DNA of 64,000 nt, taken from assembly GCF_001021045.1 (NCBI RefSeq), contig NZ_CP011545.1:2604001-2668000 (forward strand), given 5' to 3'. The position numbers and the translations under genes were made by a program. Below the pieces are notes generated by a model. The model was not told where the DNA came from and did no database searches. It saw only the letters and a program-made list of their open reading frames with translations. This DNA is from Corynebacterium testudinoris. Its GTDB lineage: Bacteria; Actinomycetota; Actinomycetes; Mycobacteriales; Mycobacteriaceae. How positions within the stretch are numbered: position 1 is the stretch's first letter; each line of letters begins with the position of its first letter. Below are positions 32,292-60,700 of the stretch, piece by piece.

Positions 32292-32350
32292 CCGCGCCTC
32301 GTCCAGCAGTCGCAGACCTCACCAACCGAACGACTGCGGTCAACCACAAG

Positions 32351-32824
32351 TCAACTCGATGAAGCCTCGTTAATCCACAAGGGGGATAGTTCTTGGCGCA
32401 GATCAAGGAGCTCCGTCCAGGAGTGTGGAATTGGAACTCGGAGAGCGAACGATTCGGGGAGGTTAATCCACGTGATCGCCTCCGGGTCATTGAAGTCTGC
32501 CCGAGCCATGAAGTTGTCACCAGCCAGGAAACCCGACCACAAAAGGTGCGCGTTGAGGTGCTCAAACGACATGGGAGACTGGGAGCTGGTGATGAGTTCG
32601 GTCACCCATCCCACTAGGGCACTCGTGTTTTCTACTTGGACTCTGATGAGGACATTGAACAGTCCATCTTCTACCCATACAGCCTCGGTGGAAAGCACCG
32701 CGTACTTCTTCTGGCCATCTACGAAGTAGGGGCACTCACTCTCGACCTGGCGTTTGAGAATGCCCGTTAGGTAGGTGCCCGCTTCCTCAGCGTCAAACGT
32801 TCCCGGAGCTAATTCCTTCGCCAT
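32351..32824 (-). CDS. Hypothetical protein, 157 residues
   Basis: A soluble protein without signal or membrane segment, rich in W, E and L, including PEAITWINLPESFALRVPIP and ending in DLRQELSPLWINEASSS. I recognise no family. Base composition is visibly less GC-rich than its neighbours, which hints at acquisition from elsewhere. The Shine-Dalgarno is weak (AGGGTG 6 bp before the ATG). It lies between an MFS gene and dnaB. Confidence 0.6.
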   Translation of the reverse strand: MAKELAPGTFDAEEAGTYLTGILKRQVESECPYFVDGQKKYAVLSTEAVWVEDGLFNVLIRVQVENTSALVGWVTELITSSQSPMSFEHLNAHLLWSGFLAGDNFMARADFNDPEAITWINLPESFALRVPIPHSWTELLDLRQELSPLWINEASSS

Positions 32825-32918
32825 TGCTACACCCTAGTGAATCGGCATGGTCGACGTCGCCTCGGAGGGCGAGCACGCGCTGTACTACACCTTGGTGTCC
32901 GTCATTAACTGGCACGAC

Positions 32919-46619: not shown

Positions 46620-47432
46620 ATGCCCGAAGGTCACGTCATCCACCGCCTCGCCAATGAGCTCAACGAACGCTTCGCGGGCCGCGACCTGCACATCACCTCC
46701 CCCCAGGGGAGGTTCGCCGCTGAGGCATCGCTTATCGACGGCGCGCCCATCACCCATGCGGAAGCACGAGGCAAGCACTTATTCATCGACGTCGACGCGC
46801 CTCACCCCGAGCACATCCTCTACATCCACTTAGGGCTCATCGGGGAAATGCGTTTCGAGCCCACCGACGACGTGTGGGGCCAGATTCGCCTGCGGATCGA
46901 CAACGGCGAGGAGGCCGCCAACCTGCGCGGACCCCAATGGTGCCGGTTGATCACGGACGCCGAATACGACATCGCCGTGGCCAAGCTCGGCGAAGATCCC
47001 CTGCGCGAAGATGCCTCCCCCGACCACCTCTGGCCCCGCGTCTCCCGCTCCGGCCGCAGCATCGGCTCCCTGCTCATGGACCAAAAACTCTTCGCCGGCG
47101 TGGGCAACATCTACCGCGCGGAAACGCTCTTCCGCCTCGGCATCTCCCCCTTCCTCCCCGGCAACCAGCTCGAACGCAACGAGTTCGACAGCATCTGGTT
47201 CGACCTCGTGGGCCTCATGAACGACGGAGTTCGGGCCGGACGCATTGATACCGTCCGACCCGAACACACCCCGGAAGCCATGAACCGCGAGCCCCGCAAG
47301 GACGACCACGGCGGCGAAGTCTACGTCTACCGCCGCTCCGGCCAACCCTGCTTCGTCTGCGGCACCGATATTGCAGAGAAGGTCATGGAGGGCCGGAACC
47401 TCTTCTGGTGTCCCGGCTGCCAACCCGACTAG
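46620..47432 (+). CDS. Endonuclease VIII/Fpg-family DNA glycosylase
   Basis: A 270-residue Fpg/Nei-family base-excision repair enzyme. The N-terminus MPEGHVIHRLA provides the catalytic proline and glutamate. The helix-two-turn-helix contains DQKLFAGVGNIYRAETLFRLG. The C-terminal zinc finger has CFVCGTDIAE and WCPGC. PEGH rather than PELP points to the Nei subgroup of actinobacteria, which removes oxidised pyrimidines and repairs apurinic sites. It ends with a 4-bp overlap with the convergent MHS transporter gene. Confidence 0.88.
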   Translation: MPEGHVIHRLANELNERFAGRDLHITSPQGRFAAEASLIDGAPITHAEARGKHLFIDVDAPHPEHILYIHLGLIGEMRFEPTDDVWGQIRLRIDNGEEAANLRGPQWCRLITDAEYDIAVAKLGEDPLREDASPDHLWPRVSRSGRSIGSLLMDQKLFAGVGNIYRAETLFRLGISPFLPGNQLERNEFDSIWFDLVGLMNDGVRAGRIDTVRPEHTPEAMNREPRKDDHGGEVYVYRRSGQPCFVCGTDIAEKVMEGRNLFWCPGCQPD

Positions 47433-58281: not shown

Positions 58282-59118
58282 ATGAGTATCCCCAAGCAAG
58301 TTGGCGTCCTCGGTGGCGGCCGCATGGGCGCAGGAATCGCCCATTCTTTCCTCGCCGCCGGTGCTTCCGTCACGGTCGTTGATGTCAATGACGCCGCCGT
58401 CACCGCCGCCCGCGAACGCATCGCCCAGGACGTCGCCGGTTCCTTTGCCCGGGGTGCGGAGGGTTCCCCCGAGGAGTGGATGGACCGGCTCACTGTGACC
58501 ACCGACCCGGCGGCCTTTGCCCATCACCCGCTGATCATCGAAGCCGTGCCGGAGTCCATCGAGCTGAAGATTAGTTCTTTCCGGACGATCGCCGAACACT
58601 CCCCCGCCGCGGCCATCGCCACCAATACGTCGTCGCTGTCGGTCACCGACTTAGCGGGCATCGTGGACAATGACGTCATTGGGCTGCATTTTTTCAACCC
58701 GGTGCCCGCTTCGAAGCTCGTGGAAATCGTCGTCGCTGACTCCACCCCGCCCTCCCTGGTCAAGGATGCGAAGGTCTGGGTGGAGGGCCTGGGCAAGACG
58801 CCGATCGTGGTCAAGGACTCCCCCGGTTTCGCCTCATCCCGCCTGGGTGTAGCCATCGCCATCGAGGCGATCCGCATGGTTGAGGAGGGCGTGGCCAGCG
58901 CCGAGGACATCGACCAGGCCATGGTCCTGGGCTACAAGTTCCCGGTTGGTCCGCTCGCGCTCACCGATATCGTCGGCCTCGACGTGCGTTTGGGGATCGC
59001 GGAGTACCTCGAGTCGTCCTTAGGCCCCCGCTTCGCCCCGCCGCAGCTCATGCGCGATATGGTCGCCCGCGGTGAGCTCGGCCGCAAGTCCGGCAAGGGC
59101 TTCTACGACTACCGCTAG
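58282..59118 (+). CDS. paaH: 3-hydroxyadipyl-CoA dehydrogenase
   Basis: A 278-residue NAD-dependent 3-hydroxyacyl-CoA dehydrogenase. The dinucleotide loop is GVLGGGRMGAGIAHSFLAAGASVTVVDVN, and the catalytic region IGLHFFNPVPASKLVEIV, KDSPGFASSRLG. It oxidises the 3-hydroxyacyl-CoA. The last 36 bp are repeated at 60275-60310 after an inserted TetR-HPP cassette, so the original 3' end is probably split by duplication. Its stop here is TAG. Confidence 0.93.
   Translation: MSIPKQVGVLGGGRMGAGIAHSFLAAGASVTVVDVNDAAVTAARERIAQDVAGSFARGAEGSPEEWMDRLTVTTDPAAFAHHPLIIEAVPESIELKISSFRTIAEHSPAAAIATNTSSLSVTDLAGIVDNDVIGLHFFNPVPASKLVEIVVADSTPPSLVKDAKVWVEGLGKTPIVVKDSPGFASSRLGVAIAIEAIRMVEEGVASAEDIDQAMVLGYKFPVGPLALTDIVGLDVRLGIAEYLESSLGPRFAPPQLMRDMVARGELGRKSGKGFYDYR
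59082..59117 (+). repeat. 36-bp direct repeat, left copy (3' end of paaH)
   Basis: The last codons of paaH up to the TA of the stop. It is identical at all 36 positions to 60275-60310. The final CTA also serves as the reverse-strand TAG stop of the TetR gene. Confidence 0.9.
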
Positions 59119-59669
59119 TTGTTGGCGGCCAGTAGCCGATCGGCTGCCGCCTTCGCTTGCTCAGCGGCGTCGGCATTCCCCGAGATACCCGCGGTGACCA
59201 TGCATCCTTCTATCAGGAGGAAGATCGCATCTGCTGTAGCTTGCGGCGCACCCGTTCCGGCTACGACGTCGTTCACATAGTTGCGCAGGCGTATCTTGTG
59301 TCGACGCACCGACTCTGCGACGTCGAGAGAAGTCCCGCCGAGTTCACCGAATGCGTTGATCCAGGCGCATCCGCGGTGACCTTCGCCCGCGAGCCAGTCT
59401 GAGAGCCAATCGAATATCGCCAGCACCTGACCCTTTGGCTGCGTTTCTTGGGCAACCCGCTGTGCTAACGAGGCGCGCCATCGTTCATCACGACGATCGA
59501 GCATCGCCACCGCGATCGCATCCTTGCCTGCGAACAGTGAGTAGATGCGCTTGAGAGGCAGACCGGATGCAGCGCGGAGGGCATCCATCCCGACGGCTTG
59601 ATACCCGCGTTCGTAGAAGAGCTCTTCAGCTGCGTCAAGCAGTTGATCACGAGCCGTTTGAGACGACAT
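59115..59669 (-). CDS. TetR-family regulator of the HPP gene
   Basis: A 184-residue TetR repressor. The helix-turn-helix is ARDQLLDAAEELFYERGYQAVGMDALRAASGLPLKRIYSLFAGKDAIAVAMLD. The sequence is close to YxaF/LmrA-like TetR proteins with a conserved C-terminal CAWINAFGELGG region. Two palindromes AGAACGNTCGTTCT lie in the intergenic region with the divergent HPP gene. It ends in the left copy of the 36-bp repeat. It is probably not a paa regulator. Confidence 0.88.
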   Translation of the reverse strand: MSSQTARDQLLDAAEELFYERGYQAVGMDALRAASGLPLKRIYSLFAGKDAIAVAMLDRRDERWRASLAQRVAQETQPKGQVLAIFDWLSDWLAGEGHRGCAWINAFGELGGTSLDVAESVRRHKIRLRNYVNDVVAGTGAPQATADAIFLLIEGCMVTAGISGNADAAEQAKAAADRLLAANN

Positions 59670-59702
59670 GGCTGTCCACCGGAACCTTTCAAAGTTGCGT
59701 TG

Positions 59703-59750
59703 AGAACGGTCGTTCTATACTCTACCAAGCACGTAGAGAACGATCGTTCT
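59703..59750. promoter_or_regulatory. Twin TetR operators between regulator and HPP gene
   Basis: AGAACGGTCGTTCT at 59703-59716 and the perfect palindrome AGAACGATCGTTCT at 59737-59750, centres 34 bp apart. Between them TATACT (59716-59721) can act as a -10. Confidence 0.8.
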
Positions 59751-59773
59751 CGCACAGCGAAAGGAACGCGGTC

Positions 59774-60274
59774 GTGACATCAGATGTGAAGCCGATCTTT
59801 GCCAGCAGAGCACCCGCACGCCCAGCAATTTCCACCCTGCTGGTGGCGACACTCACCTCGACGGCAGCGCTGACTGCACTTGTCGCCCTCGGAGCCCTAT
59901 CGGGACACTTGCTGCTCATCCCACCCATGGCTGCGAGCATGGCCCTGATCGCCGGTGCGCCGTCATTGCCGTTGGCACAGCCCCGTCACGTAATCGGAGG
60001 TCAGGTAATCTCGGCCATCGTTGGTGTCACGGTCGGGCTGGCGAGCCACTCACTTTGGGCTGCCGCCATCGCCGGAGGCTTCGCGCTTGGCGCAATGCTG
60101 CTGACGCGCACGTCGCATTCACCAGCAGCAGCCACCGCTGTAATCGGAGCAATGCTGACACAGGGGCACATCTCATTCGTGATCTGCGCTGGTCTCGGGG
60201 CTGGAGTGCTCGTACTGTTCGGACTGCTTCGTTCCACACTGAAACGTGTGGCCTATCCGGCGTATTGGTGGTAA
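59774..60274 (+). CDS. HPP-family membrane protein
   Basis: A 166-residue integral membrane protein of the HPP family. The pattern LLIPPMAASMALIAGAPSLPLAQPRHVIGGQVISA carries the PP motif and the glycine-rich loop, with four to five helices. A family member in cyanobacteria is a nitrite transporter, but the substrate here is unknown. The GTG at 59774 follows AAAGGAACGCG. Its stop is directly followed by the second 36-bp repeat. Confidence 0.85.
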   Translation: MTSDVKPIFASRAPARPAISTLLVATLTSTAALTALVALGALSGHLLLIPPMAASMALIAGAPSLPLAQPRHVIGGQVISAIVGVTVGLASHSLWAAAIAGGFALGAMLLTRTSHSPAAATAVIGAMLTQGHISFVICAGLGAGVLVLFGLLRSTLKRVAYPAYWW

Positions 60275-60310
60275 CCGCAAGTCCGGCAAGGGCTTCTACG
60301 ACTACCGCTA
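60275..60310 (+). repeat. 36-bp direct repeat, right copy
   Basis: A perfect copy of 59082-59117 directly after the HPP stop. Here the frame of paaH would end in TAA at 60309-60311, and the reverse strand CTA supplies the TAG stop of the thioesterase gene. Confidence 0.9.
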
Positions 60311-60700
60311 ATGCTTATCGACGATCGCGTTGGTAATCCGTGCCGTACACAGCCGCCGCCCTGCGTCGTCCGTGATGGTCACCTCGTGGCTGGTCAGCGT
60401 CCTGCCCAGGCGGATAGCCGTGGCGGTGGCCGTCACCATCCCCTCCCGGCCGGAGGCGTGGTGGGTGGCGTTGATATCCACCCCGACGGCCACCTTGCCC
60501 ATGGTCGAGGCGTGGATGACCGCGGCCCAGGATCCGACGGCCTCCGCGATCGCGACCATCGCCCCGCCGTGGAGGAGCCCGAGTGACTGGCGGTTTCCGT
60601 CGATAGGCATGGTGGCCACCACTTTCTCGGGGGATTGCTCGACGACGGTGACACCCATCTTCTTATCGAGTTCTCCCAGTTCAATGGTCCACGGTTCCAT
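60308..60700 (-). CDS. Hotdog-fold thioesterase (PaaI/YdiI-like)
   Basis: A 130-residue hotdog thioesterase. The motif GLLHGGAMVAIAEAVGSWAAVIHAS contains the HGG helix and the glutamate that is catalytic in YdiI/EntH-like enzymes. It lies between paaH and paaZ and may remove dead-end CoA thioesters, including ring-opened tropone precursors. The start ATG follows AATGGAGCAAC. It was probably convergent with paaH before the insertion. Confidence 0.87.
   Translation of the reverse strand: MEPWTIELGELDKKMGVTVVEQSPEKVVATMPIDGNRQSLGLLHGGAMVAIAEAVGSWAAVIHASTMGKVAVGVDINATHHASGREGMVTATATAIRLGRTLTSHEVTITDDAGRRLCTARITNAIVDKH

Follow-up and report, generated by a model that had tools for sequence, protein, structure and literature searches.

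"Insertion with long target duplication" is a published category, described from a comparison of two related bacterial genomes (Nobusato et al. 2000). Restriction-modification systems of all types can insert with long target duplications of variable length (PMC3031569), and an 80-bp flanking repeat was the site at which an H. pylori system was lost and then regained (PMC7494987). Across three bacterial species, 10–18% of small variable segments were reported to be flanked by repeats, most of them shorter than 30 bp (PMC2884548), while transposed genes of Arabidopsis often have genic flanking repeats (PMC2869330). Among insertion sequences, the IS1634 family usually duplicates 5–6 bp, with 8–514 bp given for IS1549 and IS1634; the 2008 review that gives these lengths stated that no mechanistic model had been put forward for the long duplications (PMC2266710). 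A Geobacillus member of the IS1634 family has a 6-bp duplication (PMC8024623).

We analyzed a locus in Corynebacterium testudinoris (genome G000) at which a regulator gene and a membrane protein gene lie between two copies of the end of a neighboring gene. The window is the whole stretch of DNA analyzed, 64,000 nucleotides in length, and its positions are used throughout. The features of the locus are as follows.

58282..59118, + strand: paaH (3-hydroxyacyl-CoA dehydrogenase), the target gene, intact; 3HCDH_N and 3HCDH domains; 91% nucleotide identity to the sister genome G013.
59082..59117, + strand: left copy of the 36-bp direct repeat, the end of paaH (repeat scans).
59115..59669, - strand: TetR-family regulator; TetR_N (PF00440), 37.9 bits vs. 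a gathering score of 24.
59118..60274, no strand: inserted segment of 1157 bp, missing in G013 (G000/G013 comparison).
59702..59749, no strand: two palindromic boxes, AGAACGGTCGTTCT and AGAACGATCGTTCT, 34 bp apart, likely TetR operators; conserved in 14/14 pairs.
59774..60274, + strand: HPP-family membrane protein, 166 aa, GTG start; TM_HPP (PF04982), 98.9 bits vs. a gathering score of 27.2.
60275..60310, + strand: right copy of the 36-bp direct repeat, which runs on into the native thioesterase end (repeat scans, G013 comparison).
60308..60700, - strand: PaaI-like thioesterase, the convergent neighbor, intact; 4HBT, 49.7 bits vs. 20.6; adjoins paaH in G013.

The two repeat copies were identical at 36/36 positions in a pairwise comparison. 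When the whole window was scanned for direct repeats of at least 24 nt (16-base seed), a single family emerged, namely this pair; its third listed member, at 47294, is only 67% alike and chance-like. A whole-genome scan allowing up to 3 mismatches found the 36-mer at just these two sites in the 2.72-Mb chromosome. Together, the two scans rule out a chance repeat. The preliminary description of this stretch had reported the perfect repeat of the last 36 bp of paaH, with a TetR and an HPP gene between the copies, and here gene calls and domain matches agree that exactly these two genes lie there. It had also read the stop codons correctly. At the left junction, paaH ends in a TAG that the insert supplies in part, while the base after the right copy is an A, which would complete TAA. 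On the + strand, CTA at 59115-59117 and at 60308-60310 gives the TAG stops of the TetR and thioesterase genes, placing each inside its own repeat copy. The right copy begins immediately after the HPP stop (TAA, 60272-60274), and the TetR C-terminus has a similar length in relatives.

The insert holds only the TetR and HPP genes, with no IS1634 transposase, no recombinase, and no integrase, in line with the original remark that neither an integrase nor a transposase is visible. No terminal inverted repeat was found in the insert, where the best match between the first 50 and last 50 bases was 5 nt long and away from the ends. The different base pattern ascribed to the segment proved weak. Its GC content is 60.5%, against 62.9% in the window and 65–66% in the flanks; among segments of equal size this is the 21st percentile, and the tetranucleotide distance of the insert is at the 89th.

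The sister genome G013, the closest of 242 genomes of the genus by paaH DNA (91%), shows the site without the insert. There, paaH (2668546-2669381) abuts the thioesterase gene (2669382-2669771) with a single repeat copy, and the end of paaH continues directly into the bases that in the window come after the right copy. Where the two genomes were aligned colinearly, over part of their length, G000 has 1158 bp extra and G013 has a 35-bp overlap at the site, which is the mark of a target duplication. The one-copy empty site thus indicates that 1157 bp were inserted with a duplication of 36 bp of the target. The insertion is real, as is its 36-bp target duplication, and the proposed check for an empty site, with paaH directly adjoining the thioesterase gene, came out as predicted. 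Integration at a gene end with the gene left intact is likewise upheld, as both neighbors are whole. Because the duplication gives each neighbor its own 3' end, neither gene is broken.

The distribution of the pair among relatives points to a gain in the G000 lineage. A paaH DNA match was present in 131 genomes, from which 30 paaH loci were fetched. The coding ends of paaH and the thioesterase lie at most 120 bp apart in 22 of these 30, G013 included, and 6 have no thioesterase inside the 1.5-kb flank. The remaining two are the window (gap 1195) and G150 (gap 1111, with another gene between). In the genus, 28 of 242 genomes have an HPP match, and these 28 include none of the 29 further genomes that supplied the paaH loci; ancestral presence with loss elsewhere is disfavored on these counts. 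At the paaH/thioesterase junctions of G150 (L185:1777-2862) and G212 (L189:2179-6504), another gene, with a weak, below cut-off match to MTES_1575, sits beside hairpin-like repeats, and at the G212 junction a transposase-like reading frame also surrounds a masked stretch. The gene and the hairpin-like repeats differ in structure from the present locus, and we do not count these junctions as same-site insertions of a like kind.

The event at the paaH site matches the already known category of insertion with long target duplication. Both have an empty site with one copy in a relative, and a long flanking repeat of target sequence with no recognized recombinase; the cargo differs, being a TetR-HPP pair here and restriction-modification genes in the cases cited above. 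Among the matches listed from the open-access literature, none dealt with this insertion or described a TetR-HPP cassette, which is not a claim of absence in print.

A 36-bp repeat had at first been judged too long for a usual target-site duplication, and the IS1634-family elements of the genus do not support this. In G013, an IS1634-family element (NF033559, 359.7 bits, cut-off 100) lies between exact 34-bp repeats. We collected 26 distinct copies with a recognizable inverted-repeat pair from 13 genomes; 5 copies without such a pair by motif are outside this count, as are L240 and L255-L265. Exact flanking repeats of 34–564 bp were found at 18 of the 26, with lengths of 34, 36, 47, 73, 77, 81, 85, 102, 107, 169, 169, 201, 228, 248, 282, 377, 459, and 564 bp. 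The other eight comprise three with repeats of 5–7 bp and five with no repeat, one of which, L247, has several overlapping end pairs. Copies with long repeats include L222:12310-14049, L266-L269 (G013), and L271-L283.

These elements share long, variable target duplications with the insert, whose own repeat is likewise long (36 bp), but the insert lacks a transposase, inverted repeats, and an IS end motif. It resembles an IS1634 event in its scar, yet it is no member of the IS1634 family, and a link between the 36-bp duplication and the long IS1634-type duplications is suggestive. An IS1634-type transposase could have moved the pair as a non-autonomous unit and so given the long target duplication. 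In favor of such an agent, the five G013 copies of IS1634 are flanked by exact repeats of 34, 36, 77, 107, and 564 bp; the missing terminal inverted repeat and IS1634 end motif, along with the lack of any IS1634 match in G000, make it very unlikely.

To characterize the cargo, we compared the window with 82 fetched loci, which gave 14 distinct loci with a divergent TetR-HPP pair. These are the window, G041, G204 (duplicated by L134 and counted once), two Leucobacter loci, and one each from Dietzia, Microbacterium, Nocardioides, Rhodococcus, Demequina, Timonella, Nesterenkonia, and an Arthrobacter and a Galactobacter metagenome bin. All 14 intergenic regions (59670-59773 in the window) contain two palindromes like AGAACGATCGTTCT, 34–35 bp apart. 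With a motif derived from the window, the better box had 0–2 mismatches and the second 0–4, whereas in 200 base shuffles of each region the best box averaged about 6 mismatches, and the lowest count was 2–4. From these sequence patterns, we read the pair as a conserved actinobacterial module, predicted to regulate itself through a putative double operator. HPP proteins of plants and cyanobacteria are associated with the transport of nitrite. No PDB relative of the HPP protein was found by sequence at E ≤ 1.

The same 14 loci bear on the proposal that the unit is a new type of gene cassette. Direct repeats between the two flanks (700 bp each side, shorter for L105 and L107) exceeded the cross-flank control, whose best score was 15 in 182 comparisons, at 2 of the 14 pairs: the window (score 36) and G041 (score 22). 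The search for the same pair with other flanking repeats elsewhere thus had a partial return, positive in G041 and negative in 12 of 14 pairs. In G041 (L090:7197-9035), a TetR-HPP pair and a CG0192-family gene lie between 34-nt direct repeats alike at 30/34 positions (88%). As in the window, the TetR stop codon falls within this repeat, whose far copy lies beyond the CG0192-family gene; allowing up to 2 mismatches, the repeat core is unique in G041. A search for an empty site of G041 found none; the right-flank gene is present in only 2 of 242 genomes (E ≤ 1e-10), the other one not colinear. We treat G041 as a lead, not proof.

Integron cassettes and other tyrosine-recombinase elements resemble the insert in having compact cargo at a gene end, with the gene restored by the repeat; they differ in that the insert has no integrase and its gene pair is divergent. 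The pair could be a mobile gene cassette for which the 36 bp served as attachment site at the gene end, with a site-specific recombinase as the agent of movement. The boundaries are indeed flush, stop to stop, and G041 has a related pair between a different 34-nt repeat. We nevertheless regard this as highly improbable, given that 12 of the 14 pairs have no flanking repeat above control, that the G041 repeat differs in sequence, and that in G000 the 36-mer occurs only at this site. Moreover, the far copy in G041 is not at the HPP end, its two copies differ by 12%, and its empty site was not found. A search of G000 for recombinases of the tyrosine class gave two PF00589 matches, at 1.28 and 1.72 Mb, both distant from the site. 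The designation as a new type of gene cassette is not supported.

The identity of the two copies informs where they came from. The G013 sequence matches the 36-mer at 32/36, with four positions differing, so copies that are identical at 36/36 within G000 both look host-derived. A paaH end carried in by a donor is disfavored, since it would need to match the host species more closely than its sister does, and the RecA-type capture suggested earlier loses ground in that form. Later gene conversion between the copies could also be the source of their identity. Apart from the window and G013, a search at E ≤ 1e-3 found no paaH homologue in any of the HPP loci (5-kb flanks, some shorter), and the remaining TetR-HPP loci, with flanks of the same extent, gave no match to the 36-mer beyond chance.

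Two routes based on homology were weighed against this evidence. In the first, a circle with 36 bp identical to the paaH end, of 1193 bp if it held nothing else, would have entered by homologous recombination, a single crossover placing the pair between two copies. This yields exactly the observed structure, and at 36 bp the repeat is close to the RecA threshold, put at about 30 bp for E. coli (PMC2884548). A circle model has also been proposed for the Arabidopsis genes with genic flanking repeats (PMC2869330). Those genes are similar to the present pair in being non-transposon genes between direct repeats from the target site; they differ in being eukaryotic, with circles proposed to arise from tandem repeats (PMC2869330). 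The circle requires the paaH end of this very species, which the sister matches at only 32/36 and which the other TetR-HPP loci lack, and we consider it unlikely. The second route is homology-facilitated illegitimate recombination, which has been reported in transformable bacteria (PMC2884548, PMC3240628). Here, an incoming dehydrogenase end beside TetR would pair with paaH, and the other side would be joined without homology 36 bp upstream. It would suit a repeat that codes for the paaH end, and dehydrogenase ends do match in DNA at other loci of the genus. However, the other pairs examined have no dehydrogenase gene beside TetR, and the left copy has no donor-type difference from the right copy, leaving this route quite unlikely.

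The explanation that we favor, and hold to be fairly probable, is that a horizontally acquired TetR-HPP module inserted at the paaH and thioesterase ends, duplicating 36 bp of the host target. The module would have reached the G000 lineage by horizontal transfer and entered at the overlapping 3' ends of the two convergent genes. The target would have been opened as if with a 36-nt stagger and the gaps then filled; alternatively, a repair fork may have re-entered its template 36 bp upstream. Candidate agents are illegitimate repair or replication of the incoming DNA, or a strand-transfer enzyme that leaves no ends. We infer a single event for the insertion and the duplication, with both copies of host origin.

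Several points count against this favored explanation, the possible later conversion between the copies among them. The boundaries of the insert coincide exactly with the HPP stop and the TetR stop, neater than would be expected of a random fragment. Ku was also not found in G000, while a control search found it in 1 of 14 genomes; Ku-type end joining is thus rejected and one ordinary end-joining route removed. Cas1-type insertion likewise duplicates a length of about 36 bp in size, and it was set aside when no Cas1 was found in G000 (9 of 14 genomes in the control search). Searches for a donor returned only partial or distant matches. Plasmid DNA gave 5 records with partial matches of 60–80%, and plasmid proteins gave 2 partial matches, the best 71% over 58% of HPP. 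Viral contigs gave no match, and genome contigs gave 77 loci, the best at 79% amino acid identity. In a sample of 397 genomes of the order, the window alone matched at E ≤ 1e-40. As no high-identity donor was found, microhomology at the junctions is unreadable.

To place the event among other differences between G000 and G013, we listed clean indels, with one gap of at least 250 bp and the other of at most 120 bp, in the aligned part of the two genomes. There were 11, the paaH-site insert among them, and the best flanking repeat at the other 10 was at most 13 nt; two long-repeat IS1634 copies of G013 sit in larger alignment gaps, outside this count. As the sole indel with a repeat longer than 13 bp, the insert indicates that such duplication is not the common local process, a further point against the favored explanation, and a general cassette process in G000 was not seen in the aligned part.

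Several other segments were noted in the course of this comparison. Within 457 kb of G000, the other close repeat pairs were one of 111 bp, one of 77 bp that looks like a tRNA gene, and five of 18–23 nt. The 111-bp pair (105/111 alike; L199:10803 and 11177, G000:C1:2374803 and 2375177) coincides with reading frames for small acidic proteins, within a 922-bp segment missing from G013. Window positions 32298-32918, 621 bp with a 157-aa reading frame, are also missing from G013 and have an 11-bp repeat at their edges. In G013, a CRISPR-like array lies at about 2490760-2502830 of C1 (L225), in a 25-kb stretch unaligned to G000.

A broader proposal is that a host process, rather than a transposase, produced the long duplication. 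It draws on duplications of the same length (34–36 bp) at IS1634 elements and at a pair with neither inverted repeats nor a transposase, together with the 34-nt repeat of G041, and we put it forward as a tentative idea of low probability. If it is true, long gap filling or fork re-entry in these bacteria would give captured DNA neat flanks, between which recombination could remove it again, and the long repeats of IS1634 and IS1549, so far unexplained, would follow from the same host process.

Gene gain through insertion with long target duplication can be seen cleanly at this locus, where a sister species has the empty site, and long duplications also occur at the IS1634 elements of the same genus. 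The locus shows how convergent genes that overlap can take in a regulated gene module with both left unbroken, and the predicted self-regulation of the module would suit function after transfer.
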